From Defluviitaleaceae bacterium (GTDB lineage Bacteria; Bacillota; Clostridia; Lachnospirales; WQUN01), in NCBI GenBank assembly GCA_009785615.1, contig WQVX01000006.1:1-42734 (forward strand): 42,734 bases of DNA, in the 5' to 3' direction. The notes below the pieces were generated by a model. That model was not told the origin of the DNA. It saw only the letters and a list, made by a program, of their open reading frames with translations, and did not search any database. The translations under genes were made by a program, and so were the position numbers. Below are positions 21,679 through 39,745 of the stretch, piece after piece. The number at the start of each line of letters is the position of its first letter. Position 1 is the stretch's first letter.

Positions 21679-22771
21679 GCAACAAACATATAGAGAAACG
21701 GTTGGCATCTACACAGATAACACTAACATAAGTAGTATATCGCACGAAATTAAACACAATTTAAATACCCCAAGCAAATTTACAACCATCTATAAGCCTA
21801 ATAGCATTGATCAAAACATTATGTTGGTAAAATGTTCTTGTCTTGGTTGTGTTAACCCTAAGTGCATGAAATTCTCAATTGAAGAATTTATATTGACAGA
21901 TGAAAGGTTGAGCGGCTTCCCTGTTGATGCAGACGATTCTGTTTGTCCGCTTGATGCTATTGTTTGGGAACGTGGATCTCATACGCCTACAATTATCGCT
22001 AACCGTTGTATAAATTGCGGGATATGCGCAAGAAGATGCCCTGCTGGTGCAATTTATTCAAACGGAGAAAATGCAGTCATTCATATCGGCGAAAGAAATA
22101 TTGAATTTTTGCCGAAAACAGTTGAAAATTTAGAAAAACATACAGCGCAAATTAATGAATTGTTGCAATGTAATCATGTAGGTATATTTGTTGAGTCAAG
22201 TGAAAAATCCATTTCTACGCTTTACAAAAAACTTTATGCCAAACTCAACGATCCACAAACAAAATACCGGTTTTCAAACTTAATTGTTCGTAATTTATTT
22301 TTGGTTTTGGGAAACCGGTGTATTATTCGCAGGAGAGGTGATATTTACTTTCGCATTGATGCTATTCTTGAAGATACACCCGTAATTGGCGTTGTAGAAG
22401 TCGAATTCAATAAGGAATCGTTAGAATCTCCTCGTGCAATTTTAGATGATGTAGCTGTGCTTGTTTCAAGATATGAAATTGAAAAACACCAAATAAAGCC
22501 ATTTATAGTTTCTCTTGAATTTCCTAATATCCGAACGGAGTATTGGCGTGTAATCAAAGATATTCGTGACGTTTTAGAAATTCAGATTAATTCTTTATCA
22601 TTGGGCGCACTCTGTATTTTGGTATGGCAATTTGTCGATGCTCCAATCAGCAAGGTTGATTTTTACGCCGACATAGATTCTCCAAGCATAAAAACAGCAA
22701 TCAAAAAAGCCTGTGTTGGCTTTCCGATTGCTGACATTATAAATTTTGCTGTTTTAGAGCCTAAGAAATGA
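21662..22771 (+). CDS. 2[4Fe-4S] ferredoxin domain fused to a PD-(D/E)XK-like nuclease domain
   Basis: A 369-aa protein. Residues 58-130 hold Cys60-xx-Cys63-xxxx-Cys68, Cys95-Pro and Cys116-xx-Cys119-xx-Cys122-xxx-Cys126-Pro, enough to bind two [4Fe-4S] clusters as in bacterial ferredoxins. Residues ~200-300 contain RIDAILED...VVEVEFNKE: Asp233, Glu246 and Glu248 in place of the usual lysine. The Asp-Glu spacing (13) equals that of the partner protein (452-465). GGAGGG precedes the ATG, which overlaps the partner gene. It is probably the second subunit of the restriction enzyme or a regulator of it; an iron-sulfur redox role is unproven. Confidence 0.75.
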   Translation: MSKVFRQQTYRETVGIYTDNTNISSISHEIKHNLNTPSKFTTIYKPNSIDQNIMLVKCSCLGCVNPKCMKFSIEEFILTDERLSGFPVDADDSVCPLDAIVWERGSHTPTIIANRCINCGICARRCPAGAIYSNGENAVIHIGERNIEFLPKTVENLEKHTAQINELLQCNHVGIFVESSEKSISTLYKKLYAKLNDPQTKYRFSNLIVRNLFLVLGNRCIIRRRGDIYFRIDAILEDTPVIGVVEVEFNKESLESPRAILDDVAVLVSRYEIEKHQIKPFIVSLEFPNIRTEYWRVIKDIRDVLEIQINSLSLGALCILVWQFVDAPISKVDFYADIDSPSIKTAIKKACVGFPIADIINFAVLEPKK

Positions 22772-23917: not shown

Positions 23918-24328
23918 ATGATATGGCATAAAAATTATGAAACAGGAAACATTCAAGTGGACAACGAGCACAAGGAAATTTTTAAAATGGTTCAAAGTGT
24001 TATGGAAGCCACTTTCGATAGCGAGGAATCAAAAATTGAATCTACTATCGACTTTTTGGCAAACTACACCGTAAATCATTTTAAGCACGAAGAAAGGCTA
24101 ATGGAAGAATCAAACTATCCATCAATGCCTGTCCATAAAAAACAACATGATGATTTTGTTATAGAAGTGCTGGATCTTAGAGAAAGGGTTAAAAGCGAAA
24201 GCAGCAGCGATAAAAACAGCTTAGAAATTAAAAAAGTTATCGTTAACTGGCTTGTTGACCATGTATTAGGCAGTGATAAAATTATGGCAGATCATTATCG
24301 CAAATGGTCAAATGCAGAAAACAAGTAG
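23918..24328 (+). CDS. Bacteriohemerythrin
   Basis: A 136-aa four-helix protein carrying the hemerythrin iron ligands in order: His in the N-terminal IWHKNY, HKE after VDNE, HFKHEE, HKKQHDDF and DHVLGSDK. Such single-domain proteins bind oxygen at a diiron centre and are linked to oxygen sensing or scavenging in microaerobes and anaerobes. It fits with the rubrerythrin elsewhere in the window. AGGAG precedes the ATG. It appears monocistronic; the Hsp70 operon promoter follows directly. Confidence 0.96.
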   Translation: MIWHKNYETGNIQVDNEHKEIFKMVQSVMEATFDSEESKIESTIDFLANYTVNHFKHEERLMEESNYPSMPVHKKQHDDFVIEVLDLRERVKSESSSDKNSLEIKKVIVNWLVDHVLGSDKIMADHYRKWSNAENK

Positions 24329-24417: not shown

Positions 24418-25482
24418 ATGCCGTTTTATAATGAATTTGAACAAATATTTTTATTTCTACACAATTGGGATAATAATGTTGTTGTTATGGCAATTTTTAT
24501 TATTTTACATGTGCTTACCATTGTCTTACGTTTAGCTGTTTTTTTTGGATATAAAGGATTAAATGCTTTAATGACTATGGACATGATGCCGGCACGAGGA
24601 TTAGTTTCAAAAGCTGATATTCCAACCATTAGAAGCAGTTTGCTAAAGCGCGTTGCAGCAGATTATGTTGCAGCAGCAGAAAAAAACGCCCCACGAATTC
24701 CATTAAAAGCCATAATAGATAAACATATATTGTCTCTATCTTTTTTAGGATGGCCCTATGCAGGTATCAGCAAGTGGATAGAAAAATTGGAAAGCAGTTT
24801 AATGCTCTTAGGGTTAGCCTTAGCCTTTTTGTTTTTGGATTATGGTAATGCATATATATTGCTGGCTTTGACGGGCTTTATTATCTTAAAACTAGCTGCT
24901 GCATTTTTTGATTATGATACTGCCAAGCAAGTTTTAGTAAGTGATATACACTTGTACATGGAACGGGAAGTTGGTCAGTTTTTTGCGGGACATACTGCCG
25001 GAGCAATATTGCAATTTAAAAAAGGCATGGAAGAAGCTGTAGATCACCAAAACGCACTACTTCGCGGTACAATAGAAAAACTAAATGCAGATTTGCACTT
25101 GACATTAAAAAACCTTGAATGTTTGGCAACTTTGCCAAAAGCTTTGGAGAATATGATTCAAAGTAATGATAAATACGCGCTGCATCACGACACCTACAAC
25201 ACCCAAATTCAAATGATTAAAGATACTCAAGCGGCCTTAGCATCCAGCTTGGAAGTTTATGAGACTACATTACAAAATTTAGTACAGACTATGGGCAATG
25301 GCATGGGGACGTTTATTCAACTACATGGTCAAAATGCCGCAGATTCTCTTGTGGATGTGATGCAAAATCACATGACACATGTTATAGAAAACAACCAACA
25401 AACAGTGTCGTCTATAACAAGTCTAATGGATCAGCTAACAGATCAGTTGCGTACCTTGCATGAGCGAATTACTACTTTGTAG
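24418..25482 (+). CDS. Membrane protein with long helical cytoplasmic tail
   Basis: A 354-aa protein. Hydrophobic segments lie near residues 20-45 (VVVMAIFIILHVLTIVLRL) and as a pair near 125-165 (SLMLLGLALAFLFL and ILLALTGFIILKLAAAFF). From about 170 to the end it is helical and heptad-like, with many Gln, Asn, Leu and Met, resembling the coiled-coil tails of methyl-accepting or MotA/TolQ-like scaffold proteins. I do not recognise a family. As first gene of the Hsp70 operon it is a plausible membrane anchor of the complex. The start has a near-perfect AAGGAGGTG. Confidence 0.7.
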   Translation: MPFYNEFEQIFLFLHNWDNNVVVMAIFIILHVLTIVLRLAVFFGYKGLNALMTMDMMPARGLVSKADIPTIRSSLLKRVAADYVAAAEKNAPRIPLKAIIDKHILSLSFLGWPYAGISKWIEKLESSLMLLGLALAFLFLDYGNAYILLALTGFIILKLAAAFFDYDTAKQVLVSDIHLYMEREVGQFFAGHTAGAILQFKKGMEEAVDHQNALLRGTIEKLNADLHLTLKNLECLATLPKALENMIQSNDKYALHHDTYNTQIQMIKDTQAALASSLEVYETTLQNLVQTMGNGMGTFIQLHGQNAADSLVDVMQNHMTHVIENNQQTVSSITSLMDQLTDQLRTLHERITTL

Positions 25483-25496
25483 GAGGAGTGGCCGGC

Positions 25497-26717
25497 ATGG
25501 ACATACGAGAAGCATTAGAATATCCGCTGCCGGTGCTGTCCGTCAGCAAAGAAGAAATTGTAATTGAAGCAAACATTGAATCTAACATTAATTCTAATAA
25601 AAGCTATGAAGCATCTTTTGAATTAAAAAATTTTAAAGGCGGAATATTGTCAGGAAAAATAATATCCCCTGTTAAAAGTTTAACTTTTGAACCAAATACA
25701 TGGGAAGGAAACCGCCAAACTGTAGTATGCCGTTTTTCTCCGGATCCTATGGAATGTTGGAAGCCGGGAGAAGTGCATACATTTTCAACTTTGATACTTT
25801 CTAACGGAGGCGAATTCACTTTACCTATTACTGTCCGTTTGGCTAAAATGGCCATAAATACTTTAGAAGGTATAACAATTGCTAATCTTCAAGATTTTTA
25901 TGATTATGCTCAAAAATTTCCTCAAAAGGCACAAAAATTATTTACCGACATTAAATTTCCCAAACTATTGTCCGCTACAAATTTTTTATATATTGATGCA
26001 TATTCTTTTTTGGCAAAAGAGGCTAATTATAACCAAGCACGAGCAATGGATAACTTTTTTATCCTGGCCGGACTTAAAAACCGAACCAAACTACAAGCCC
26101 TTACATCTACAAAAGAACATATATCAAAAATTAAAGATGATAACATGATATATGGCGCATTTATGTTACAAAAAAGTGATATCGGATATGTAGATGCTCA
26201 TATTTCTGCATTAAATGATTCGCCATGGATATCTTTATCAAGCAATACATTAAACACATGGGATTTTGATGACAACCTTACTGCAATGATAAAATACAGC
26301 ATAGATCCAATGCAAATACGCGGTAGATATGCTTGTGAGCGAATCTTAATAACTGCGGCAGATACAGAAGATGTACCTGTAGATATAATCTTTAAACGTC
26401 CGGCACCCATCAAAACTTGGCTAACCAGAGAAGGCTATAAATTTCAAGACGAAGGATTTATAGTTGTGGAAAATCAACTGGACGAACCTTTAATTTTAGA
26501 ATTTTTTTGCAAAGAACAGTTTGTGCGCTTTTATCAGGAGAGATACAAAGTTGAAGGAAGATTAAGCATCCCATTTTTGATTAAACTGTCTCCTTTACAG
26601 TCAGCGCAGATGCTTTTTCGTAAAGTACCATCATTATCAGCAGAAATTGAGATCCGCACTATTTATAGTGGTACCGTAATCAGAAAGGTTTTGACTTTAA
26701 CAGCAGGAGAATGGTAG
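25497..26717 (+). CDS. Ig-like/beta-domain protein of the Hsp70 operon
   Basis: A 406-aa protein from the ATG at 25497 (AGGAGG 10 nt before); a GTG at 25488 is too close to that site. Residues ~10-120 read as a beta-sandwich (EIVIEANIESNINSN, SYEASFELKNFKGG, PITVRLAKM). Residues 125-215 are helical (FYDYAQKFPQKAQKLF) and the rest is beta-rich again. There is no signal peptide, so it is probably cytoplasmic. It resembles, from memory, the N-terminal part of large uncharacterised Lachnospiraceae proteins (DUF5717 type) encoded near Hsp70 genes; here that protein may be split between this gene and the next. Function unknown. Confidence 0.6.
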   Translation: MDIREALEYPLPVLSVSKEEIVIEANIESNINSNKSYEASFELKNFKGGILSGKIISPVKSLTFEPNTWEGNRQTVVCRFSPDPMECWKPGEVHTFSTLILSNGGEFTLPITVRLAKMAINTLEGITIANLQDFYDYAQKFPQKAQKLFTDIKFPKLLSATNFLYIDAYSFLAKEANYNQARAMDNFFILAGLKNRTKLQALTSTKEHISKIKDDNMIYGAFMLQKSDIGYVDAHISALNDSPWISLSSNTLNTWDFDDNLTAMIKYSIDPMQIRGRYACERILITAADTEDVPVDIIFKRPAPIKTWLTREGYKFQDEGFIVVENQLDEPLILEFFCKEQFVRFYQERYKVEGRLSIPFLIKLSPLQSAQMLFRKVPSLSAEIEIRTIYSGTVIRKVLTLTAGEW

Positions 26718-29519
26718 GTGTCCATGTTTCAAAAAAAGATTGATAATATGGAAAAGCGTTTTGAAATGCGGCCAACAGTAAAAACAGCCGTAGGACTTGC
26801 TCTGCGTAAATGGCTTGTTTATGCAGTATCAGTTGTACCGGAACCCAGAGAGTATTTGCACCGTGCTAACCATGTAATTTTAACAAGATTACGCAAAAAC
26901 GAGTCGGATATGCGTCTTTTTTGGCTGGGCATATATTTTTCAATTGAGCTGGGCTACTTTGATAAAGCTAATGAGATGCTGGACAATGCATACACTTACC
27001 GTGCTTACTATAAAAGCAACCAGCCTTTTAACTATAAAATACTGCACTTTTTGTATTCGTACCTTGAAATAAAACAAAAACGAGCCAAATCTGCAAAAAA
27101 ACATATGCGTACATTGGAATCCGCAGCAGGAGCTTTTGGTTCAATTGATTTTGATCCTAAGTTTGACCCACTTATGATGGGTATGCTTCATCTGGCCTTT
27201 TATGAATATGACGAAGCATATAGATATCTTGCCCGCAGCTATAGGGCCGGTTGCCGCAGTGTATTCTTGTTTAGTGCGTTATTTAACTTTTATCACACAG
27301 CTACTGCTCGCGGAAGAATAATGGGAGAGAGCGATAGCCGTATGCTTTTGCAAACGGTTCATTGGGCACTTAACCATGACGCAGATGTAGAGCATATTAT
27401 TGTTGTTTATCAAAATGAACTGTTGCAAAAAGATCATATCGCGCTTGGCGAGAGAATATACCACCAATTTCCAAATCAGTGGATGTTAAAGGAATTGTGC
27501 GCACATTATATGACAATACCTGATTATGGGCCAAAGGCATATGAATATTATCGAGATGCAGAAAGACGGCAAATCTACCTTCCAAATTTAAGCTATTTTT
27601 TGGTTCGCGCAGCGTTTTGCAGTGGGGCAGAGCGCATACATCGCTATACCATGACCCAATATTTGCGCAAGCCGGATGAAGATATAGACTTGCTAACATA
27701 CGTTTACCATCTTCTTTTAACAGATGAATCATTGTCAGATTTAGCTGCAAATCATGTTCAAAGTATAATCAAAGTAGCTGCACACTGCATGAATGAAAAT
27801 ATAAGAAGTCGTTATGCTAATAGCTTATACTACTTTTTTTGGATAAAATGTAACGAACAGCAAATTAAAGGTGAAAATGTTGATAGAGTTGAAAAAGTCC
27901 TTCTTGAAGATCTTTATAAATTTGAGGTGGTTTTTCCCGTTAAAAATGGAGATAAAACACCTGTAAAAAATCTCTATATTGATGAGCAAGAGAAAAACGG
28001 CATTACTGAATATGAATTTCCATCAGATGGTTCAACGCTGATAATTAATGCTGTAAGCAACGGATTTAGATACGTGGGGCTAAGTAGCAGCCATACTACG
28101 GTATTAGAAGCGGGGGTAACTGCACCTTTAGAAATTTATAGACGAATAGCCTCTGCCGGGACAGCACTATACCGTCATTTTTATGACAAAAACATTAGAG
28201 ATTTTGAAATAATTGCATATCTGGCTAAAGCCTATATTCAAGCCATATCAAAGGGAGAATACCAACAAAACCAAGATTGGGAAAGTGTTTTAGAGGCTGT
28301 TTTAGTTTCAAAAGAAGCCTCAAAAGCATTTAAAACTCAGTGCAGTGTTGCCCTTGGTGAGCTTTATTATAAAAAAGGTCAGTTAGAAAAAGCACTTTTA
28401 TGCTACGATAAAGCCGATGAAAATGCACTGGATGACGAATTTTTGGAACATATGCTTACAGTTTACGTAAAACAACAAGCTTTTGAAGCGGCCACAGGGT
28501 TAGTAGAGCGTAAGGGGCATCGAATAGGCGTTAAAGTGCTTTTTGAAGCATTAAAACCGCTTTCATTACAAGAACATGCTAACCGGCATCCGGCTATTGC
28601 AAAAACTGCATATGAATTATTGTTGCGGTCAAGATATGATAAAAATTTATTAGAAGTGGTCTTAGCGCACTTTACAGGTACTCAAAAACAGTGGTTGGAT
28701 TTAAGCCAAATGCTATCCAGTATGTCTATTAATGAACCCCGATTAGCTGAAATTATACTAAACAATGCTGCCTGGGGACATCACTTTGATGAAGCTACTC
28801 AGCGAGTATTTGTAAAAATGATAAATGATGAAACTGCCGGAGAAAGCTTTAAAAAATGCCTTCAGGATTTTATATACTATGCTATGTATGAGATTATTAT
28901 TGAAAAAGCAAAGCCTTTACCTGAGACAATTGCTGCATTGGAAAAAACTTATATAGAAAAAATTCATTTTAAAGGCGAAGAAAACCTTTTAGCTTATGGC
29001 TTGTGTCATGTATATCTGGGTCATGGAGTTACTACAATTAATTCAAATACAATTATTGAAGCGGCTGTTTCTTATCAAAAAGAAAAAGGTATGTTATTTC
29101 CCATATTTAGAGAAAGCAAAAAGAAGATAAATGCGTATATAGGAAAGTACAGGTCATTTATGTATCGAACACTGCCCGGGAAAAATGTGCGTTTATATTA
29201 TAGAGTAGACGAGGAGGAAGATTGGCGTGTAAAGGATATGGATTACTGGCTTTTTGGTCTGTATATGACTTATGTCCCTCACTTCTATGATGAACGGTTA
29301 GAGTATTATTTTAGCGAAGAGCTTTTGACAGGAAGCATAACCACTCAGCAGGAAGAGGTACATAACACAGATATGTACCTGGATGAAAATAGCACAGATC
29401 CATTTTTTATTATTAATAATGCCACTATTTACGAGCAGATGTTTAGATACGAGCAGGTAGAAGAAATTATCGGAGGATTGGTAAGGGATGTTAAAACAGT
29501 AAGAAGTAGATTGATGTAA
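26718..29519 (+). CDS. Large helical-repeat protein, 933 aa (possibly DUF5717-type)
   Basis: A 933-aa soluble protein starting at GTG 26718 (GGAGA 8 nt before) or ATG 26724. Helical hairpins of the TPR kind recur: [67 protein letters not shown] beta segment (residues ~400-470) interrupts the helices, and a C-terminal domain contains [16 protein letters not shown]. No J-domain HPD motif is present. Such scaffolds bind partner proteins; here the obvious partners are the Hsp70s downstream. It abuts the previous gene. The family name is from memory and uncertain. Confidence 0.65.
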
Positions 29520-29542: not shown

Positions 29543-29773
29543 ATGGCTAAGAAACTTTATAAATCTAGTACTGATGAGCAAATCGAAGGTGTATGCGGCG
29601 GTATTGCTGAATACCTTGGCGTGGACTCTACCATTGTCCGTCTTATATGGGTAGGTTTCACTCTTTTGGGTGGTTCGGGTATTTTGGCTTATATTATAGC
29701 TTGCTTTGTGATACCTGATCCACCGGAAGAGGGGACAGAAGATAAAGCAACAAAACCTTATAATGCAAATTAA
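29543..29773 (+). CDS. PspC-domain membrane protein
   Basis: A 76-aa protein, almost only a PspC domain: [35 protein letters not shown], then one membrane segment ([20 protein letters not shown]) and a short acidic tail. PspC proteins sense or modulate envelope stress in other bacteria. Its place inside an Hsp70 operon suggests that this machine acts at, or reports on, the cell membrane. AAAGGAG precedes the ATG. Confidence 0.92.
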
Positions 29774-29800: not shown

Positions 29801-31489
29801 ATGGGTACTTTAGGACTAGATACAGAACGTGGATTGTTTTTAGGAATCGACTTTGGTACAACAAACTCTGTGGTGAGTATATATGACTTTAAAGCCGGAG
29901 AGGCTCAAACAATTCCCATTGATGGAGCCAACATATTTCCAACAGCTATTCAATTTGAAGCGGATCCGGATGATGATGCAAAATTAACACGAGTTTTTGG
30001 AGTGCAGGCCAGAGAAGCAGTCATTATCTATCCGCAATCTACAATACTGTCAATCAAGCGATTTTTAGGCGGTGACGAGAAACTTTCCATATCAGTAGAT
30101 GAGAAAGAATATAATTTCTCTCCTCAAGAAATTGCAGGAGAAATTTTAGGATATCTAAAACAAAAAGCAGACGAATACGCACAAGAAGAGCTTAATATCA
30201 GTGGTGAATTCTCGGGATGCGTTATAACGGTGCCGGCTAACTCCACAGATAAGCAAAAGAAAATGACCAAAGAAGCAGCCATTCTTGCAGGTTTTGATGA
30301 AGATAGCGTGTATCTGCGTTTAGAACCTGCTGCATCTGCAATTAGTTATGCCATTAATGAGACTAGTGACAAAAAAGTTTTGGTATATGACTTTGGTGGT
30401 GGTACCTTTGACGCTTGTGTACTTGATATAAAGATCGAAGCTGAAGGGGAACCTACAATATCTATCATCAGCACCTTTGGTGACAATGACTTGGGCGGAA
30501 ACGATGTAGATAAAATCATCATGGACATGATCTATGAAGAGTTTAAAAAGCTAACCAACGAGGAAATAGATCTCTTTGATGAAAATGCTGACGATGGTGT
30601 ATCTAAACGGCAAAAAAAGGTGGCTTTGGTACGTTTGCAACAGGCGGCTACTCAAGCAAAAGAACGCCTTTCTCAAACCAAATCTACTAAAATTCAACTT
30701 GCGCCACTTATTCAAGAACCCAAAATTGTTAATATAAATATGGAAATGTCACGAGAAGATTTTTATGGACATCGTCGCATTAATCCTTTGGGAGATAAGC
30801 CGGAGCTTTTTGAAAAATTTGCGGGTAAAAATCTTCACGATTTGATAGGACGCACTTTAGATTGCGTGGATAAATGTCTTGAAGCCGGTGGCCTTACTCC
30901 CGCAGATATAGACGAAGTTTTTACAGTAGGTGGAAGTTCTTCATTATTGCTTGCTGCTGACGCAATTACAGCAAGATTTAACAAGGAGCCTTTTAAATCC
31001 CGTATCAGTCCTGCATTAAGTATATCTCAGGGTGCAGCCCATTACTGTAATATGATAATGATGCCTACAGTAAGAGGCCCTGTTGTGCAGGAAAAAACTA
31101 TTCATCCTCTTGGACTCGAAATTGCAGGGCGTAGATTTTTGGAAATCGTTCCGGCGGGAGAAACTATACCAAAAGATGGCTTAACCATAGACGCAAGCGA
31201 ACCTCTTACTACCAATTTTGACCATGTATCCAGTATGGCAATAGTGGTATATGAAAACACTCTGCCCGTAAGTTTGAAAAAAGATAAGGAAAGCCAATCT
31301 GTCAACCAAGAAGGTATGAAACGCTTAGCCGGCACATCTTTAAGAGGTATTCCACAAGGCCCAAGAGGGCAAGAGAAGGTCAAGGTAATATTCCATGTAG
31401 GCCAGGACAATATGCTAAAGGTTACTGCCCGCAGCTTGTCCGCAACCGGCGTAGTTACGGAGCTGTCTGTTGATGAACTCTACACATAA
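29801..31489 (+). CDS. Hsp70 family protein 1
   Basis: A 562-aa DnaK-like chaperone ATPase. Nucleotide-binding motifs are intact: GIDFGTTNSVV (15-25), DFGGGTFD (197-204) and VGGSSSL. After the ATPase domain the substrate-binding beta domain is recognisable (GLEIAGRRFLEIVPAGETIPK) but the helical lid is missing: DnaK is about 610-640 aa. A stretch near residues 310-350 is divergent. Four such genes lie in one operon here, so this is a specialised Hsp70 rather than the housekeeping DnaK. AAGGAGG precedes the ATG; the end overlaps the GrpE-like gene. Confidence 0.93.
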   Translation: MGTLGLDTERGLFLGIDFGTTNSVVSIYDFKAGEAQTIPIDGANIFPTAIQFEADPDDDAKLTRVFGVQAREAVIIYPQSTILSIKRFLGGDEKLSISVDEKEYNFSPQEIAGEILGYLKQKADEYAQEELNISGEFSGCVITVPANSTDKQKKMTKEAAILAGFDEDSVYLRLEPAASAISYAINETSDKKVLVYDFGGGTFDACVLDIKIEAEGEPTISIISTFGDNDLGGNDVDKIIMDMIYEEFKKLTNEEIDLFDENADDGVSKRQKKVALVRLQQAATQAKERLSQTKSTKIQLAPLIQEPKIVNINMEMSREDFYGHRRINPLGDKPELFEKFAGKNLHDLIGRTLDCVDKCLEAGGLTPADIDEVFTVGGSSSLLLAADAITARFNKEPFKSRISPALSISQGAAHYCNMIMMPTVRGPVVQEKTIHPLGLEIAGRRFLEIVPAGETIPKDGLTIDASEPLTTNFDHVSSMAIVVYENTLPVSLKKDKESQSVNQEGMKRLAGTSLRGIPQGPRGQEKVKVIFHVGQDNMLKVTARSLSATGVVTELSVDELYT

Positions 31490-33248
31490 TAATTTGCAAA
31501 AATCATGGGGTACACTGTTGACGGCAACAGAAAACTATGCCAGACAGTGTACTGATATATTATTTAACGAATGCAATCGCAGGATATCATGGAAGCTGTT
31601 GAATGAAGCTGCTAAACTATCTAAGTTTGGCAGTCATGATGAGGAAGTATATAACCATTGTAAACGGCTAGTATTGTCATACAAAGAAACGGTTGATTTG
31701 CATGACCGTTTTCATGATGAAATCGTAAGCCATGAAGTTAGAGAGATAATTGATGGAATAGTTACAGTATTAGTCTCTAGGTTAAGAGAATTTGAAGAGA
31801 TGAATATTGATACGATTATTAAGTCTGACACCAATCCTGTAACTGTTGAAAAAAATGCTATAATTGCCCAGGCCACAAATAATCTGGTAAAATGCATAAA
31901 TAATCAACGGTTAACTTTTAGCGAAGAAATGTCTGCGTTTTGTGTGCGTTGGATGAGGCAAAATCTAGCAAAAGAGTTTTTGTTAGAAGCTATTAGCAAA
32001 GAAATATTGCCCGTTATATATAAATCTTATTGCAGTGGTCTTGAATTGTGTAAAAGTCAACTAAATGACATTAATCATCGCAAAAAAATACAGCTTTATC
32101 TAACCTTAATGGAGGACGAACTTGAGATACTCTCAACCATTATAAAAATTCAAGTTAAAGCTTTGGAGCAAGCGGTAGAATATGCTTCAAATCCTCTTGA
32201 AAAAATTGCGGTACACAAAATCTTATCTTTGTTGCGAGAAGCCTACCAACATTTTGGGCGCGCTTCCACAGAAATTGCTGCGGTCTTTCGTCGTTTAGAA
32301 GAAGATAAATTGGATAAGGCTCTAAATATTCCGGTTTCCTACGATAGCTTTGAAAAATTTTTACTTGATCGCTTTAGAAAAATTCGATTTTCAAATAGCA
32401 ACCGTATAAAAGAAAAAGTTGGAATATTTAAATCTCAAATAGAAAATGAAATAGATTCATTTCTTGGGCGGTATAAACTGGATTTTTATAAATCGATATA
32501 CCGTTTTCGTCGAATGGCAAGCGTAGAAATTATGCTGGCAGATGAAATGATAAATATCTTTGTAAACTTACACAATGCTTGGCCTGTGCTTGAACAAGAT
32601 GCAGAAAAAGAATTACAACAAGAAATATTACAGGGTGTTGCAGAAACCATCGAAATAAAAGTAGATGGATTAAAAGAAAGCACCTTGCAGTTTAAAGAAG
32701 AATGTGCTAAGGCAATAGCAGATTTTTCTGCTAAAAATAACCCTCCAACTGATGAAAAACTGCAAACCGCTCATGTAGAGGCATGGCGGTTATGGACAGA
32801 AAATTCTGAGGATTTTTTTCAATCTTACCCGGAAGCTCCGGTATTTGCAGAGTTTAGTCAGTACTATGAAAAAAGCACTTCTCGCTGTCAGGAAAATTTA
32901 GAAAAAAAGCTGATGAAGTTTAAAAGAGAGGTATTATTATACGAAATCAGCACTTATGAAGAAATTATCGCGTATAGTGTTTCCCGCTTGCGTGAAGATG
33001 AGGCTACTCAATATGCGGCAGAATTAGCTGATACTACTTTGGCTAAACTGGAAGTCCTACTGAAAAAGAACAACATAGAATTGATACGCCCTAACCCTCA
33101 TGATACTTTTAACCCTAAAGAACATGAGATTCTTATGGCAGAAACATTGCCGGAGTTTAAAAAGGGTGAAATAGTCAAGCTTATGAATAGTGGTTATCGG
33201 CAAAGAGATACTGTCTTGCTACGTGCTAATGTTATAGTGGCCAGGTGA
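31473..33248 (+). CDS. Long helical protein with C-terminal GrpE-like head (candidate nucleotide-exchange factor)
   Basis: A 591-aa, strongly helical, charged protein. The last ~58 residues read NIELIRPNPHDTFNPKEHEI, later KKGEIVKLMNSGYRQRD and TVLLRANVIVAR. This follows the GrpE head domain pattern G-(I/V)-E-x-I-x-P...F-(D/N)-P-x-x-H-E...G-x-V-x-x-(V/L)-x-x-G-Y...V-L-R-x-A-x-V-x-V-A. GrpE exchanges ADP for ATP on DnaK but is only ~180-210 aa; here ~530 residues of helix precede the head. The gene overlaps Hsp70-1 by 17 bp and abuts Hsp70-2. The start is the ATG at 31473; a TTG lies one codon upstream. Confidence 0.75.
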   Translation: MNSTHNNLQKSWGTLLTATENYARQCTDILFNECNRRISWKLLNEAAKLSKFGSHDEEVYNHCKRLVLSYKETVDLHDRFHDEIVSHEVREIIDGIVTVLVSRLREFEEMNIDTIIKSDTNPVTVEKNAIIAQATNNLVKCINNQRLTFSEEMSAFCVRWMRQNLAKEFLLEAISKEILPVIYKSYCSGLELCKSQLNDINHRKKIQLYLTLMEDELEILSTIIKIQVKALEQAVEYASNPLEKIAVHKILSLLREAYQHFGRASTEIAAVFRRLEEDKLDKALNIPVSYDSFEKFLLDRFRKIRFSNSNRIKEKVGIFKSQIENEIDSFLGRYKLDFYKSIYRFRRMASVEIMLADEMINIFVNLHNAWPVLEQDAEKELQQEILQGVAETIEIKVDGLKESTLQFKEECAKAIADFSAKNNPPTDEKLQTAHVEAWRLWTENSEDFFQSYPEAPVFAEFSQYYEKSTSRCQENLEKKLMKFKREVLLYEISTYEEIIAYSVSRLREDEATQYAAELADTTLAKLEVLLKKNNIELIRPNPHDTFNPKEHEILMAETLPEFKKGEIVKLMNSGYRQRDTVLLRANVIVAR

Positions 33249-33252
33249 TTAT

Positions 33253-34800
33253 ATGAATTGGAAAAAATATAAAGCCTTGCAAAAAAAAGATAAGCGAGAC
33301 GAAACTTATTTTATAGTTGGTCTGGATATCGGCAATGATTCTTCAGGAATTGCTTTTTATAACTTTATTGACAATGAGCCTGAACTCATTGATTTAAGCG
33401 GAGGATACGGCAGGCCAACTATTCCTACGGTTATGCAATATATTGCAGAGTCTAAAGAGTGGGTTTATGGAGAATATGCCATTCTTAACCGTGGCATGGG
33501 TCGAGAAGTCACTTTAAGTAACTTGGTAGATCGCTTAGGCAGTTCTGAATATATAGATATAGACAACCGACCCGTTAGTGTGGTTAGTCTTTTAAGTATG
33601 TATATTAAGGAATTGATGAGCAATGTAAAACACATCAATCCAAAGGCAGAAATTGCAGGAATAGTTGCTTCCGTACCCAGCTATTTTAGTACTAATGCTA
33701 GGGATGAATTTGTGCGGGCATTTAAAAATGCCGGATATGAAAAAGAACTTATAGGACTTGTATCTGACCGAGAATGTATATATTCATATCACTATAGGAA
33801 AAGATCTCAAACCGGAGAAAAAACTTTACTTATAGATTATGGCTCTCGCGGGGTGAGAGGAGGGGTTTATACCCTAGAATCCGATGCATCCACATTGCGA
33901 AGCCTGTCTTCCTTATTTGATGATGAAATTGGTACTCGGATGATTGAAGAACAAGTAAAAGATTTGTTTACAAATTATTATAAAGCAAATAATCCTATCC
34001 AAGCCCGACAAGGATTAGATCGCAATATTTTAGATCAGCTTATAGCTTTTGTCTACCAGCACAAAGACATACTCTTTCAAAAGGCCATACGAAATAAGCC
34101 GGCAAAATTGTACTTTAACTTTGCTTTTCCGCCTTTCCAGCAAACAGTAACTGTAGAGGATTCAGATAACCTTGTGGAGCCTTTTCGTAAACAGTTTAAT
34201 AAATTTATCCGCCAAGTATTGGAAAAAAATCTTACAGAAAATATTACAGTTATTGATATAGACGTGGTGTTATGCGTAGGCGGCGGCTTTGAAATGGTGT
34301 GGACTAAAGAAGCCATTGCATCCCTGTTTCCTCAAGGTAAGCTGCAATTATATAAAAATTCTAAAGCTATAACAGCCATGGGGGCAGCGGTCGCAGCAGC
34401 TCAATTGTTAGAGGTGGCAGAAGGTTATCCTATTACGATAGAGGACAGACATCAACTACCGGTGGATATAGGCTTTAGGATTGGAGATAATTTTATTCCT
34501 TTGGCAGAATGCAACAGCTTTTGGTGGCAGCCTCACCCAATCAAGCTATTTATCATTAACAGCCCTGTTAAAAACGAGGTTCCTTTTACCATTTTATCAC
34601 GTTCACCGGAAGGAGAAACAAAAACGCTGTCTGATGCGCCTCTTAAAAATTTGCCGGAACGGCCTAAGGGCACAACTCGACTTAGTGTACAACTAAAATT
34701 TTTATCAGATAGAGAAGCTATGGCAAAAATTGAGGATTGTGGATTTGGGGAATTGTTTCCTAAAACGGGATATGAGCAAGAAATAACAGTTAAATTATAA
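33253..34800 (+). CDS. Hsp70 family protein 2, predicted catalytically inactive (pseudo-Hsp70)
   Basis: A 515-aa protein collinear with Hsp70-3 and sharing its MNWxxYK start, but with ruined ATPase motifs: GLDIGNDSSGIAFY (23-36) replaces GIDLGTTNS, and IDYGSRGVRGGVY (194-206) replaces FDFGGGTLD, with Arg202 where the catalytic aspartate should be. The EEPKAAAL helix is SDRECIYS. The adenosine-pocket glycines (CVGGGFEMVW) remain. The beta domain is present in short form. The frame is fully open, so this is a conserved pseudo-enzyme or a nucleotide-free scaffold, not a decayed gene. AGGTGA precedes the ATG. Confidence 0.88.
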   Translation: MNWKKYKALQKKDKRDETYFIVGLDIGNDSSGIAFYNFIDNEPELIDLSGGYGRPTIPTVMQYIAESKEWVYGEYAILNRGMGREVTLSNLVDRLGSSEYIDIDNRPVSVVSLLSMYIKELMSNVKHINPKAEIAGIVASVPSYFSTNARDEFVRAFKNAGYEKELIGLVSDRECIYSYHYRKRSQTGEKTLLIDYGSRGVRGGVYTLESDASTLRSLSSLFDDEIGTRMIEEQVKDLFTNYYKANNPIQARQGLDRNILDQLIAFVYQHKDILFQKAIRNKPAKLYFNFAFPPFQQTVTVEDSDNLVEPFRKQFNKFIRQVLEKNLTENITVIDIDVVLCVGGGFEMVWTKEAIASLFPQGKLQLYKNSKAITAMGAAVAAAQLLEVAEGYPITIEDRHQLPVDIGFRIGDNFIPLAECNSFWWQPHPIKLFIINSPVKNEVPFTILSRSPEGETKTLSDAPLKNLPERPKGTTRLSVQLKFLSDREAMAKIEDCGFGELFPKTGYEQEITVKL

Positions 34801-34852: not shown

Positions 34853-36490
34853 ATGAACTGGGAAGAATATAAACAAAAAATTGAAGAACGGGGTAACTTG
34901 CCTGAAGATTGGTATATTATTGGCATTGACTTAGGTACTACCAATTCGGTAATCAGTTATTGGGACAGTAGCAATGGTAGGCCGGAACCTATTGATATCA
35001 GTAACGGTTTTGGGAAAATTCCTCTTCCTTCTGTAGTGCAGTATCGAGAGGATGAAGATTCAGACCAAGCTGAATGGGTAATTGGCGAGGAAGCTTACCG
35101 TTCTATGAAAATATACCCGGAAACCACTGTTCGTTCAGCTAAACGCTTGATGGGTACTCAGGAAACTTTTAACCTTGGCGGAACCGAATATCTCCCGGAA
35201 GATATTTCTGCAAAGATATTGCAGGAGTTGGTGAGCCATGCCGAACATCTTAATCCTAAAGCTGAAATTGCAGGGCTGGTAGTATCTGTGCCATATGATT
35301 TTGATGATGCTGCAAAAAAAGCAACTATGCGTGCGTGTCAACTGGCAGGTTTATCAGACAAATTAATATGCTTGATAGAAGAACCTAAAGCAGCAGCTTT
35401 GGCCTACAACTTTCGGCGTCAGTTGGATTTAGGCGAAAAAATCATGGTATTTGACTTTGGCGGTGGCACCCTTGACATAACTATCTTCCATATAACTGAG
35501 CGAGATGAGGAAAGAATTAAACTTCAGGTAATAAGTGAAGGTGGTGAAGCTTGTCATGGTGGCGATAATGTTGACGAAGCTTTATTAAAACAATGTTATG
35601 ACTATGTGAAGAATAAAACAGGTCAATCCAAAGAAGATATTGCAGTAGAAAATCAAGTGGAGCTTTCTTTACGCGCTCGGGAAGCTAAAGAACGCCTATC
35701 CGGAGTTAAATCCTTCCGTATTCCTTTTACTTTTTGTATTCCTCCTTTTGTGGAACAAATGACACGAGAGCAATTTCAAGAACTGATTCGGCCATTTATA
35801 GATAAAACACGCAAATTAGTGCAAAAGGCCCTTAGAGAAACATATACAGGTGCTCTTGTAGCTGATGATATTGACAGGGTTTTATTAGAAGGCGGCTCTT
35901 CTCAAATGCCTTGGGTTAGGGAAATGTTGTTGTATATTTTTAATGATGAAAGCAAGATATATACTTCTGAACGCCCTGCCACAGATATTTCATTGGGGGC
36001 AACCTATTATGCTGCTATGAAAATGGGATTGCTTTCTCAGCCGGATATGGAATCTGAAACTGTTAGCGTAGAGTTTGAAGTAACGGTACCTCATGATATT
36101 GGGCTTGAGATTACAGGATCGGGAGGCTCTCGTTTTTTTACCATGATTCGCCGTGGGACGTCCTACGCATTAGCAAAGAAAAGCCATATCTTTACTTTGT
36201 CCGGGGATACAGAAGAAGAGATGCAGACTTTTGATTTGCGTATCTTAGAGCGACTTGATAAAGAAGACCCCTATGAAAAATGCAAACTGATAGGAGAGGT
36301 TAGTATAGTAGGTTTACCGGTTAGGCCAAGTGGTAAAACCAGACTTAAAATAACCTTGATGGTAGAAGAAGAAGGCGGCTTGGTAAAAGGTAGCGTAGAA
36401 GATATGGGATGTGGTGACGACTATCCACCTGTAGACTTTAAAGAGGATTTTGATCCCGGCAGATTTGTAAAAACAGTGGTAGGGAGGTAA
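34853..36490 (+). CDS. Hsp70 family protein 3
   Basis: A 545-aa DnaK-like ATPase with intact motifs: GIDLGTTNSVISYW (24-37), DFGGGTLDITIF (201-212), EEPKAAALAY (176-185) and LEGGSSQMPW. It has the same 20-residue N-terminal extension (MNWEEYKQ) as Hsp70-2, so the two arose by duplication and one lost its ATPase. The substrate-binding beta domain is short and the lid is absent; the C-terminus is acidic (GCGDDYPPVDFKEDFDP). A ribosome binding site AAAGGTG precedes it. It may pair with Hsp70-2 as an active/inactive couple. Confidence 0.93.
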   Translation: MNWEEYKQKIEERGNLPEDWYIIGIDLGTTNSVISYWDSSNGRPEPIDISNGFGKIPLPSVVQYREDEDSDQAEWVIGEEAYRSMKIYPETTVRSAKRLMGTQETFNLGGTEYLPEDISAKILQELVSHAEHLNPKAEIAGLVVSVPYDFDDAAKKATMRACQLAGLSDKLICLIEEPKAAALAYNFRRQLDLGEKIMVFDFGGGTLDITIFHITERDEERIKLQVISEGGEACHGGDNVDEALLKQCYDYVKNKTGQSKEDIAVENQVELSLRAREAKERLSGVKSFRIPFTFCIPPFVEQMTREQFQELIRPFIDKTRKLVQKALRETYTGALVADDIDRVLLEGGSSQMPWVREMLLYIFNDESKIYTSERPATDISLGATYYAAMKMGLLSQPDMESETVSVEFEVTVPHDIGLEITGSGGSRFFTMIRRGTSYALAKKSHIFTLSGDTEEEMQTFDLRILERLDKEDPYEKCKLIGEVSIVGLPVRPSGKTRLKITLMVEEEGGLVKGSVEDMGCGDDYPPVDFKEDFDPGRFVKTVVGR

Positions 36491-36492
36491 TT

Positions 36493-38571
36493 ATGGGCTA
36501 TTTAGGAATAGACTTAGGTACCACCAACTCGGTGGGAATTATATATAATGATAAAAACGATTCTCTGGATGTAGTAAAACTTGATGGAAGTGACGAAATT
36601 TTACCTTCTGTTGTCAGTTATACAGAAGAAGGTGTCGTAGTAGGCAGCGAAGCAAAAAATGGTGCTATCATATATCCCGAAAGTACAATCATGTCTATCA
36701 AGCGCATGATGGGTTCAAGTGAAAAATTGGATATTAATGGCACAGAGCGCACCCCGGAAGAAATTTGTGCGGAAATTTTAAAAAAGCTAAAAATTGCTGC
36801 GGAAGCTCAATCTTCTGAAACTTTTAACGAGGTGGTAATAACCCATCCGGCTTATTATAACGATCGGCAGATATTCGCTACCAAGCAAGCAGGATTACTT
36901 GCAGGGTTTGAGAATGTCTTTTTGTTGTCTGAACCTTTATCTGCCGCCATTGAATATGGATATCGTCAAAGTTATGCTCAAACTTTGTTAGTTTACGATC
37001 TTGGAGGTGGTACTTTTGATGCCTGCGTATTGGATGTCTCTCAAGATGCAGAAGGTCAAGAGGTTTTTCAAGAACTATCTGATGTAGGCGATATGGATTT
37101 GGGCGGCGATGATTTTGATGCTGAATTGATTCGCTGGATGAAAGAAAAGTTTACAGAGGATAATGGTATTAATCCTGACGATTTAGAATCACTTGAGCGG
37201 AAGCGGGTCATACAAAAACTGAAACATGAAGCAGAGCAGACCAAAAAGAAGCTTTCCGGCACAAATAAAGTAGCAGTGCGTATTAATCCGTTGCTGATTC
37301 ATAATGGTGTACCCAAAAATCTGCAAGCTGAGATAACCAGAGAAGATTTTGAAGCCATGATCCGCAAATATGTTGACCGTAGCCGTGATATCGTGGAAGA
37401 AGCTCTTAAACGTGCGGGAAAACAAGCAGACGAAATTTCTAAAGTAATATTAGTTGGTGGATCTACATTAATACCTATGGTTAAAAGAATGGTTGCCGGA
37501 TATATCAAAGAGCCATATCGTGCCACTGACCCTGCAAAGTCTGTAGCGATGGGGGCGGCAATTTATAATTACCTGATACATCTACCTAACCGTAATGTAA
37601 AAGTAGGACAGATTACCAGACAAATTTTTGGAACAGAAGCTGTCACCAATATTGCAACAATGGAGCGGGGGCTTATTCCGATTGTCCCTATGGGCAGCCC
37701 TATTCCCAGCAAATTTTCAGATAATAATTTTGCAAGTATGTCCGGTGCATCAAGGGTGCATGTGGATGTGTATCAATGGGAACAAGGACACGAAGAAGAG
37801 CGCAAGTTTATAGGAACAGTAGGACTTGCAGGATTAACAGGTGCCACACAACTTGAAATCACTTATGCTATAGATGAAAACAATATTTTTGAAGTATTTG
37901 TTAAAGACATGAATACAGGTCATATAGAGAGAGCTGAGTTTGACCGAACTAAATCTGCCGCCCCTCCTGAGCGAGAAGCCTATACCAGAGGAACTGACAA
38001 AGTTAATGTAGTATTCTTAATTGATACCACGGGTAGCATGGATACTTACATTAACGGTGTTAAAGACCGTGCTATTGAGTTTGCCGGAATACTGGCTTCT
38101 AAAGGCGCAAGCTATAAGTTGGGCTTAATTGGCTTTGGTGATTTAGGTGAAAAAGAAAAGCCAAGTGTCTACAATTTTACGGACGATGTGCCTAAATTCC
38201 AAAAGCAAGTGAAAAATATTCCCAGAACTTACGGTGGCGATATCCCTGAATCATCATTGGATGCTGTAGAAACAGGAATAGAACTCCTTAATGCCCATAG
38301 AGCAGATGAAGGCGCACGTAATATTTTTATCTTAATAACTGATGCTCCTCCTCATGTGCCTACTGACAGCGGAAAAAGCGTAGCGCAAATACGAGATATG
38401 TTATTAGAAAAATCTGTAACAACTTATGTAGTGGCTCGTAAAGATCGTGAAAGTATAGAGTGCTATGATCCATTAACAAAACCCGGCGGCAAATACTATG
38501 ACTTAAATGACAAGTTTTTTGACATACTTGATAACATTGCCATGAGTATTGCAGAGCTGGTAAGAATCTAA
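36493..38571 (+). CDS. Hsp70-vWA fusion protein (Hsp70 family protein 4)
   Basis: A 692-aa protein. Residues 1-~380 are a complete Hsp70 ATPase domain: GIDLGTTNSVGIIY (5-18), YDLGGGTFDACVLDV, VGGSTLIPM. A shortened beta domain follows. From ~505 to the end lies a von Willebrand A domain: VVFLIDTTGSMDTY (MIDAS-type D-T-T-G-S at 511-515), GFGD, a GGDIPES loop, and ITDAPPH with the second MIDAS Asp. vWA domains bind ligands or partner proteins through a metal ion, so here the usual peptide-binding end of Hsp70 is supplemented by an adhesion-type module. GGGAGG stands before the ATG; it starts 2 bp after Hsp70-3. Confidence 0.93.
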   Translation: MGYLGIDLGTTNSVGIIYNDKNDSLDVVKLDGSDEILPSVVSYTEEGVVVGSEAKNGAIIYPESTIMSIKRMMGSSEKLDINGTERTPEEICAEILKKLKIAAEAQSSETFNEVVITHPAYYNDRQIFATKQAGLLAGFENVFLLSEPLSAAIEYGYRQSYAQTLLVYDLGGGTFDACVLDVSQDAEGQEVFQELSDVGDMDLGGDDFDAELIRWMKEKFTEDNGINPDDLESLERKRVIQKLKHEAEQTKKKLSGTNKVAVRINPLLIHNGVPKNLQAEITREDFEAMIRKYVDRSRDIVEEALKRAGKQADEISKVILVGGSTLIPMVKRMVAGYIKEPYRATDPAKSVAMGAAIYNYLIHLPNRNVKVGQITRQIFGTEAVTNIATMERGLIPIVPMGSPIPSKFSDNNFASMSGASRVHVDVYQWEQGHEEERKFIGTVGLAGLTGATQLEITYAIDENNIFEVFVKDMNTGHIERAEFDRTKSAAPPEREAYTRGTDKVNVVFLIDTTGSMDTYINGVKDRAIEFAGILASKGASYKLGLIGFGDLGEKEKPSVYNFTDDVPKFQKQVKNIPRTYGGDIPESSLDAVETGIELLNAHRADEGARNIFILITDAPPHVPTDSGKSVAQIRDMLLEKSVTTYVVARKDRESIECYDPLTKPGGKYYDLNDKFFDILDNIAMSIAELVRI

Positions 38572-38572
38572 C

Positions 38573-39745
38573 ATGAAGCTTATACTTTGTGCCTCACAGC
38601 AAGAAAACTCTGTGCCCTATCGTTTTACAGCGACGGGCATACAAGTATATACATTTGAAGAAGCTTTGTATCATGTGTACCATTATTGGAAACAGTCTGT
38701 GGATGACATTACCGCCTCTAACTTAATCTCTTGGGTTAGTGATACCTTGGGACTTGCTGTTTTAGCATCCAAGCTAAAAGAGATTGCCAAAATAGAGATA
38801 TTTAGTGAGCGTATGCTAACTTTTTTAGGAGTAATTGAATATTTTGAAAAAAGTGAGCTGGCAGCGTTAAAGCCTCAATTGGAACGCTGGGAAAAGCGTC
38901 TGGAATGGGAGACTTACAAAGAACGAGCAGACGACATGGTAAAACGTGGAGAGCCGGACAAGGCTATTCCGCTTTATCATCGTGCGTTGCATTTTGATAA
39001 AAATATACCTGTTTTAAACAATCTGAGTGTTGCATATATGCAGATGGAGGCTTATAAAGAAGCATGTATTTTTCTGGAACAGGCGTTAGAGATGGAAAAA
39101 TGTAATTGGGAGTTAATTTTGCATTATGCAGAAGCATTGCTGCATAATAATCGCATTACAGAAGGTGCTAAGGCGATTGAATTAGCTGCTGAAGTTTCGC
39201 CGGAAGCAGCTAAAGGAGATATTTTATATCTAAGAGGCGAGTTGTCTTTACGAAAAGGAAAACATGACGATGCTATCTCCTATTTTGAACAGGCAATTGC
39301 ATTGTATCCCCAAGATCAATATGTGTTTCGCTTATCTGATGTTTACGTAGGGCGTCGCCAATTTGAAAAGGCTTTAGATGTGCTTAATCATTTTATCCCG
39401 GATCCTGTTAAGGAACGAAACATCTCTTGTTTGATGAAAGAAGCTGAGCTTCATAGTTTAGCGGGCAATCTTTTTGGTGCTATCCAAACCATTAAGAGAG
39501 CACAAAAAATAAAGCCCGACTATGTAGAGTTGTGGGTACGCTTAGCTAGGTATCTTCGTTTGGATTATAATTTGCCAAAAGCAGAAGAGGCTATTGACAA
39601 GGCTCTTTCTTTGGATTCGAGTAACGAACGGGCAAGGCTTGAAAGTGCAAGAATAAAAAAGGGAACGGGCCATACTAAATCATATCAGCAGTTACTTAAA
39701 GGAATTTTAGCTGAGTTTAAGGGAAGGTATAGGGAGGTACATTAA
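38573..39745 (+). CDS. TPR-repeat protein of the Hsp70 operon
   Basis: A 390-aa soluble protein with an N-terminal ~110-residue helical region and then at least five tetratricopeptide repeats: YKERADDMVKRGEPDKAIPLY, LNNLSVAYMQMEAYKEACIF, LYLRGELSLRKGKHDDAISYF, then two or three further units to ~370. TPR proteins act as docking platforms and are classic co-chaperone partners of Hsp70 tails. It begins one base after the Hsp70-vWA stop, and there is no strong ribosome binding site, so it is probably translated by coupling. Confidence 0.88.
   Translation: MKLILCASQQENSVPYRFTATGIQVYTFEEALYHVYHYWKQSVDDITASNLISWVSDTLGLAVLASKLKEIAKIEIFSERMLTFLGVIEYFEKSELAALKPQLERWEKRLEWETYKERADDMVKRGEPDKAIPLYHRALHFDKNIPVLNNLSVAYMQMEAYKEACIFLEQALEMEKCNWELILHYAEALLHNNRITEGAKAIELAAEVSPEAAKGDILYLRGELSLRKGKHDDAISYFEQAIALYPQDQYVFRLSDVYVGRRQFEKALDVLNHFIPDPVKERNISCLMKEAELHSLAGNLFGAIQTIKRAQKIKPDYVELWVRLARYLRLDYNLPKAEEAIDKALSLDSSNERARLESARIKKGTGHTKSYQQLLKGILAEFKGRYREVH

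Follow-up and report, generated by a model that had tools for sequence, protein, structure and literature searches.

An Hsp70 with a vWA domain in the place of its lid, encoded in a clostridial gene run with three other Hsp70-type genes

Introduction

The alpha-helical lid of Hsp70 chaperones helps to hold clients, and the metal sites of vWA domains are best known from extracellular proteins. MoxR-vWA pairs provide an example of an NTPase chaperone that works with a vWA domain; in these pairs, however, the chaperone is an AAA+ protein and not an Hsp70, and two genes encode what is described here as one.

Hsp70-like proteins and vWA domains have also been reported within single operons. The accessible part of the article on CoCoNuT operons (PMC11090510) describes the Hsp70-like CnuD and the vWA protein TerY as separate proteins, as well as Hsp70-like units fused to McrB/McrC parts. 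The HSP70-GrpE theme of the GAP1-N2 GTPase systems, as given in the available portion of Kaur et al. 2020 (PMC7159879), consists of an HSP70, a GrpE, a second HSP70 that lacks the peptide-binding domain and an FNIII protein with a DnaJ or TPR fusion, and it is found in firmicutes and actinobacteria. The DnaK paralogs treated in the accessible sections of PMC11019930 are canonical duplicates, and the accessible sections of PMC8195603 have no bearing on the protein described below.

Here, we analyzed a stretch of 42,734 nucleotides (referred to as the window) from a Defluviitaleaceae bacterium (contig WQVX01000006.1, assembly GCA_009785615.1). It carries a gene, designated Hsp70-vWA, whose product has kept the nucleotide-binding domain (NBD) and the substrate-binding beta domain of Hsp70 and has exchanged the lid for a vWA domain. 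As in CoCoNuT operons, insofar as the accessible text describes them, an Hsp70-like unit and a vWA domain occur in one operon, but here they are fused. The literature search, for which most subscription titles were beyond reach, yielded no description of such a fusion, and no published description of a multi-Hsp70 locus containing it was found. Searches on DUF5716 and DUF5717, two domains that are encoded in the same gene run, returned nothing on topic.

Results

Domain layout of Hsp70-vWA

The product of the Hsp70-vWA gene (Table 1) matched three Pfam models above their curated cut-offs: HSP70 (PF00012) over residues 4-488 with an E value of 1.3e-91, VWA (PF00092) over residues 505-656 (E 2.8e-8) and VWA_4 (PF25106) over residues 506-623 (E 5.9e-10). 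The original prediction, made from the letters alone, had postulated a complete Hsp70 NBD, which is borne out by the PF00012 match and by the ATPase residues checked, all of them identical in the 65 copies aligned below. What had been called a short beta domain corresponds to the substrate-binding beta domain of Hsp70s, as the protein aligns with solved DnaK up to residue ~480. The vWA domain proposed from residue ~505 with DTTGS and ITDAPP motifs was likewise recovered by Pfam, the motifs lying at residues 511-515 and 615-620. Its suggested position instead of, or in addition to, the lid could be narrowed to the former: the beta domain is retained, and Pfam, the DnaK alignment and the structural model all lack an alpha-helical lid and place the vWA domain there from residue ~504.

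Table 1. Features of the Hsp70-vWA gene and its neighbours (positions in the window)
Feature	Position	Strand	Details
Membrane-type protein	24418..25482	+	354 aa; hydrophobic N-terminal half, coiled-coil-like tail (by eye)
DUF5717_N part 1	25488..26717	+	409 aa
DUF5717 protein	26718..29519	+	933 aa; weak TPR matches
Small PspC-domain gene	29543-29773		within run, DUF5717/Hsp70a interval; PF04024, E 1.5e-23
Hsp70a	29801..31489	+	562 aa; lidless, nucleotide motifs present
GrpE-like protein	31470..33248	+	592 aa; GrpE domain in last ~125 residues only (nt ~32865-33242)
Hsp70b	33253..34800	+	515 aa; degenerate, carries DUF5716_C and has lost the nucleotide motifs
Hsp70c	34853..36490	+	545 aa; lidless
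Hsp70-vWA	36493..38571	+	692 aa; ATG start, one uninterrupted frame
NBD of Hsp70-vWA	36493..37587	+	residues ~1-365
Linker VKVGQ and substrate-binding beta domain	37588..37950	+	residues ~366-486
Variable tether	37951..38001	+	residues ~487-503
vWA domain, where the alpha-helical lid would be	38002..38568	+	residues ~504-692
MIDAS loop 1, DTTGS	38023..38037	+	residues 511-515
MIDAS loop 2, GGDIPES	38233..38253	+	residues 581-587
MIDAS loop 3, ITDAPPH	38335..38355	+	residues 615-621
TPR protein	38573..39745	+	390 aa

Hsp70-vWA thus has the NBD, the beta domain and the nucleotide motifs in common with DnaK over ~480 matching residues, but differs from it in the vWA domain, in its place alongside three more Hsp70-type genes and in the interdomain linker, which reads VKVGQ (Q373 in 65/65 copies) instead of VLLLD. 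In DnaK, this linker carries the allostery. Given this replacement, allostery of the DnaK type may be altered or lost. The protein also scored below the NCBIfam cut-offs for DnaK equivalogs (334 bits vs 822.55 for TIGR02350 and 338.5 bits vs 648 for NF001413).

Conservation of the ATPase and metal sites

Residues were counted in an alignment of 65 Hsp70-vWA copies (A3; alignment A5 consists of 50 of its rows). Five of the 69 clostridial loci described below are omitted from it, namely, one with a start unmatched by the search pattern (L053), three cut by contig ends (L056, L104, and L107) and one with a frameshift (L106). Residues D7, T10, T11, K70, E147, D169, GGGT 171-174, D176 and GGS 322-324 of the NBD were identical in 65/65 copies, and the phosphate, adenosine and catalytic motifs of the Hsp70 NBD are all present. 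The same invariance was found for MIDAS residues D511, T513, S515, E586 and D617, and for D583 and T616. The vWA metal site follows the integrin-beta pattern D-x-T-x-S ... PE ... D; in a weak alignment with integrin beta-6 (E 0.03), the PE of GGDIPES stands opposite the PE of DTPEG, and D617 stands opposite the Asp of SDA. The Glu of integrin beta loop 2 (DTPEG) is a metal ligand, and E586 is its counterpart in this alignment. Judged by sequence, the set of MIDAS residues is complete and binding of a metal and a ligand is predicted.

Mean identity to 23 complete relatives was 77.6% for the NBD, 72.4% for the beta domain, 35.8% for the tether and 77.1% for the vWA domain, and the similar values of the first and last indicate that ATPase and vWA are equally constrained. 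The preservation of ATPase and MIDAS residues in an old fusion argues for strong constraint on both halves. At the position equivalent to DnaK T199, 62/65 copies carry M201. Slow hydrolysis, to which this residue might have pointed, was set aside because the DnaK of the same genome also lacks Thr there.

Structure predictions

The AlphaFold2 model of the whole protein (mean pLDDT 81.3, pTM 0.61) contained the expected strands and helices, including the strands of the beta domain, and its sole stretch of at least three residues with pLDDT below 50 was 495-501, within the tether. Its best PDB matches were DnaK structures, with the stimulating-state DnaK 7kru among the top ones. Modeled in isolation, the vWA domain reached a pTM of 0.84; its best Foldseek matches were integrin-beta I domains (6djp_B, E 1.7e-9), while VIA-align 2 gave Z scores of 18-20 against a TFIIH subunit and integrin I domains, the TFIIH subunit being the best. 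The structure prediction that had been suggested as a check thus returned a DnaK-like body and confirmed the vWA fold. Contact between ATPase and vWA was not predicted in the whole-protein model, owing to its pTM of 0.61 and the low confidence at the tether.

The fold and the metal site are shared with integrin beta I and other MIDAS vWA domains. Hsp70-vWA differs from integrins in that its vWA domain is fused to an ATPase and appears cytosolic, since no signal peptide was seen by eye, and its sequence similarity to them is marginal.

The fusion is genuine and old

The C-terminal half (residues 371-692) had a strong match (E <1e-40) in 25/41 relatives. Contigs scanned with one genome per species gave 70 loci, 69 of which are clostridial by their titles. 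They come from Candidatus Epulonipiscium, the strain Defluviitalea phaphyphila Alg1, a MAG with the title Turicibacter and numerous Defluviitaleaceae MAGs; many of these MAGs originate from termite guts, and the carriers as a group are gut and anaerobic bacteria. The remaining locus encodes a Gemmataceae vWA protein without Hsp70. The far matches L108 and L129 are vWA proteins that lack Hsp70.

A sample of the order gave matches at E up to 1e-15 in 93/295 genomes, and 88 of these showed one match across both halves (query 1-321/322). This count excludes three further genomes with partial matches (G003 and G417) or a match on two contigs (G021), together with which the fusion spans 13 families in 91 genomes, nearly always as a single copy. 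The last two genomes (G349 and G037) had the vWA part only and, like G314 and 4/5 genomes of one wider sample, are distant rows kept outside the fusion counts. Beyond the source genome, no fused match was detected among 291 class-level genomes (E up to 1e-20) or among 398 phylum-level ones (E up to 1e-15), both being thin samples, so that a rare fusion elsewhere is possible.

A sequencing error joining two genes had been named as a possible objection. Other genera and families carry the fusion too, at 54-84% identity, and its presence in 88/295 order genomes rules out a sequencing join, an assembly artefact and chance. Nor were the two domains seen as separate, unlinked genes in the domain search of relatives: the full-length C-terminal half was fused throughout, except at one locus (L106/L128), where a frameshift, due to mutation or assembly error, splits the gene into two overlapping frames. 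Hsp70-vWA is thus a real, old and well-kept fusion.

Full-length Hsp70-vWA was absent from plasmids (0/9 matched records with >80% coverage), from phages (0/33 matched) and from viral contigs, and a mobile or phage origin was rejected on these grounds. Among the matches listed for these collections, the best were vWA parts, those of crAss-like phages included. From the comparisons made, the locus is vertically inherited and chromosomal.

A run of Hsp70-type genes around Hsp70-vWA

The gene lies in a run with the order DUF5717 - Hsp70a - GrpE-like - Hsp70b (DUF5716) - Hsp70c - Hsp70-vWA - TPR, with intergenic gaps of 1 to 52 bases from the GrpE-like gene onward. The clustering of four Hsp70-type genes with a GrpE-like gene among them had gone unmentioned in the original prediction. 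In 21/69 clostridial loci the run is complete from DUF5717C through TPR, and Hsp70c is found upstream of Hsp70-vWA in 55/69; six of the other 14 lie near a contig edge, and eight lack Hsp70c with 1500 or more bases of upstream sequence present, their run being broken up. Hsp70a was present in all 25 carriers of Hsp70-vWA among the 41 relatives, often on another contig, and in two further relatives without Hsp70-vWA, whose genomes are 80-82% complete.

The 354 aa protein at the start of the run has a homologue at the same place in L159 (302 aa, 44 bits). In L076, L105, L106, L131, L149 and L154, the gene after TPR encodes a coiled-coil protein with hydrophobic segments (by eye); in L150 and L158, such a protein comes after a 308 aa ORF that is unmatched and occupies the TPR position. 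The source genome has a homologue of this coiled-coil/TM protein on a separate contig, C116 (E 1.2e-16). The valS gene is near the run in L076, L105, L106, L149, L150 and L158. Genes inserted among the core genes in termite-gut MAGs are NUDIX-, GNAT-, HEPN- and lipoprotein-like (by eye), with no common theme except hemerythrin-like ORFs. Such ORFs lie between Hsp70-vWA and TPR in L088, L090 and L092, and a hemerythrin gene (23918-24328) is located just before the run in the window. Further upstream, positions 19960-22771 encode a 572 aa protein without a Pfam match and then a 369 aa 4Fe-4S protein.

A Pfam scan of the operon proteins in the window revealed no J-domain gene, and none of the ten neighbouring proteins matched an AAA+ partner or a McrBC part. 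The comparison with MoxR and magnesium chelatase that had been drawn for this protein is accordingly an analogy only. Since no CIRCE element was present in the window at up to 3 mismatches, heat-shock control by HrcA was rejected. Scans for promoters and terminators gave no more sites than expected from shuffled sequence (48 vs 55.4 and 7 vs 12.5, respectively) and were not used.

Compared with the GAP1-N2 systems, as far as the accessible description of these goes, an HSP70, a GrpE, a reduced HSP70 and a TPR-bearing protein are common to both. DUF5717 has weak TPR matches. What sets the present locus apart is the vWA domain fused to Hsp70, the presence of four genes of Hsp70 type, the lack of a linked GAP1-N2 gene and its vertical inheritance on the chromosome.

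Evolution of the four Hsp70-type proteins

A 53-row tree contained one 12-row clade for each operon Hsp70 (support 100/100 for Hsp70-vWA, Hsp70a and Hsp70b and 90/92 for Hsp70c), apart from the DnaK-type rows; the placement of Hsp70b is unsure, as its branch raised a long-branch warning. Hsp70a, Hsp70c and Hsp70-vWA evolve slowly (73-76% mean identity to 23 relatives), while the GrpE-like protein, TPR and Hsp70b are fast (30-40%). Over its whole length, the GrpE-like protein, whose long N-terminal part has no assigned domain, is 19-35% identical to its counterparts in 31 relatives. Neither the phosphate motifs nor the lysine at position 70 survive in Hsp70b, which is therefore likely a pseudo-ATPase, as judged by its motifs.

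A second family of the order, f5, has a homologous locus, and most of its sampled genomes keep DUF5717, the degenerate DUF5716 Hsp70, TPR and the coiled-coil/TM protein (reduced loci L121-L124, L126, L127 and L130). The degenerate protein is the only Hsp70 of these loci, the active Hsp70a, Hsp70c and Hsp70-vWA being absent; phmmer detected none of the four retained genes in L125.

The canonical grpE, dnaK and dnaJ, the last being a J-domain gene, are located together on contig C141 of the source genome. General folding is therefore covered elsewhere, and the operon is extra. The same genome encodes a second DnaK-type Hsp70 (565 aa) on contig C86, next to a 955 aa frame that weakly matches the J domain (E 2.2e-4), and a GAP1-N2 gene (E 1.7e-32) on contig C89 (L167), which is not the contig of the Hsp70 run.

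Discussion

The comparisons establish that Hsp70-vWA has been inherited over the long term with Hsp70a, Hsp70c, Hsp70b, the GrpE-like protein, DUF5717, TPR and the coiled-coil membrane protein. We propose, with a probability of about one half, that it belongs to a dedicated, cytosolic and probably membrane-tethered multi-Hsp70 machine, of which it is the best conserved subunit, and that it works as an ATP-gated metal clutch. Via a divalent metal, the vWA domain would grip a partner, most likely a client of the machine or another of its subunits, by an acidic side chain. How the vWA domain is presented would depend on the nucleotide bound to the Hsp70 part, a state that the GrpE-like protein would reset, and the clutch might in this way load or remodel an envelope-linked complex; a role near the membrane is suggested by the coiled-coil/TM protein that neighbours the run. 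As no dedicated J-protein was seen in the operon, stimulation of the Hsp70 may come from the partner or from the housekeeping DnaJ. The operon products may form a physical complex, an association that gene order and co-occurrence suggest, both being inflated by shared ancestry.

By trading the lid for a vWA domain, Hsp70-vWA offers a clean system in which to ask whether Hsp70 allostery can drive a new binding module. The operon also holds a pseudo-Hsp70 and an outsized GrpE-like protein, and DUF5716 and DUF5717 gain a context as parts of an Hsp70-based locus.

A more modest role for the vWA domain is the most serious of the competing explanations, doubtful as it is. The domain could be a static dock that holds on to a scaffold in a metal-dependent manner, while the ATPase cycle serves the beta domain and leaves vWA binding unchanged. 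The flexible and variable tether, the non-canonical interdomain linker and the best VIA-align 2 match, to a TFIIH subunit that is an assembly module, are all in line with such a dock, whereas the equal conservation of vWA and NBD fits coupling of the two without proving it. The clutch proposal can also be carried further, and then becomes distinctly speculative: three active lidless Hsp70s, the pseudo-Hsp70 and the giant GrpE-like factor would form one stable hetero-oligomer on a TPR/coiled-coil membrane scaffold, with Hsp70-vWA as its ATP-gated, integrin-like metal clutch, an Hsp70 that would bind clients through a MIDAS domain. That would be a type of chaperone machine for which we found no description, one that uses Hsp70 allostery to power metal-dependent adhesion within the cell.

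It is unlikely that the vWA domain is a substitute lid closing over clients of the beta domain, which would make the gene a specialised general chaperone. The domain does sit exactly in the place of the lid, and the beta domain is kept; yet Hsp70a and Hsp70c of the same operon manage without any lid, the tether is variable and docking of the vWA domain was not predicted.

A conflict or defence system resembling the HSP70-GrpE theme of the GAP1-N2 GTPase systems, which in the available part of Kaur et al. 2020 (PMC7159879) likewise brings together an HSP70, a GrpE and a reduced HSP70, along with an FNIII protein, is very improbable, and membership was rejected, given that the GAP1-N2 gene is missing in 16/25 Hsp70-vWA carriers and on another contig in 9/25 and that the Hsp70-vWA locus is vertical, single copy and near valS in several lineages and yields no full-length plasmid, phage or viral match. 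PADLOC gave weak matches only, the best one for Hsp70-vWA linking its ATPase part to a candidate model (E 4.9e-5). As a separate observation, crAss-like phages (e.g. OQ221553.1) encode a vWA domain that is 32% identical over 45% of the query.
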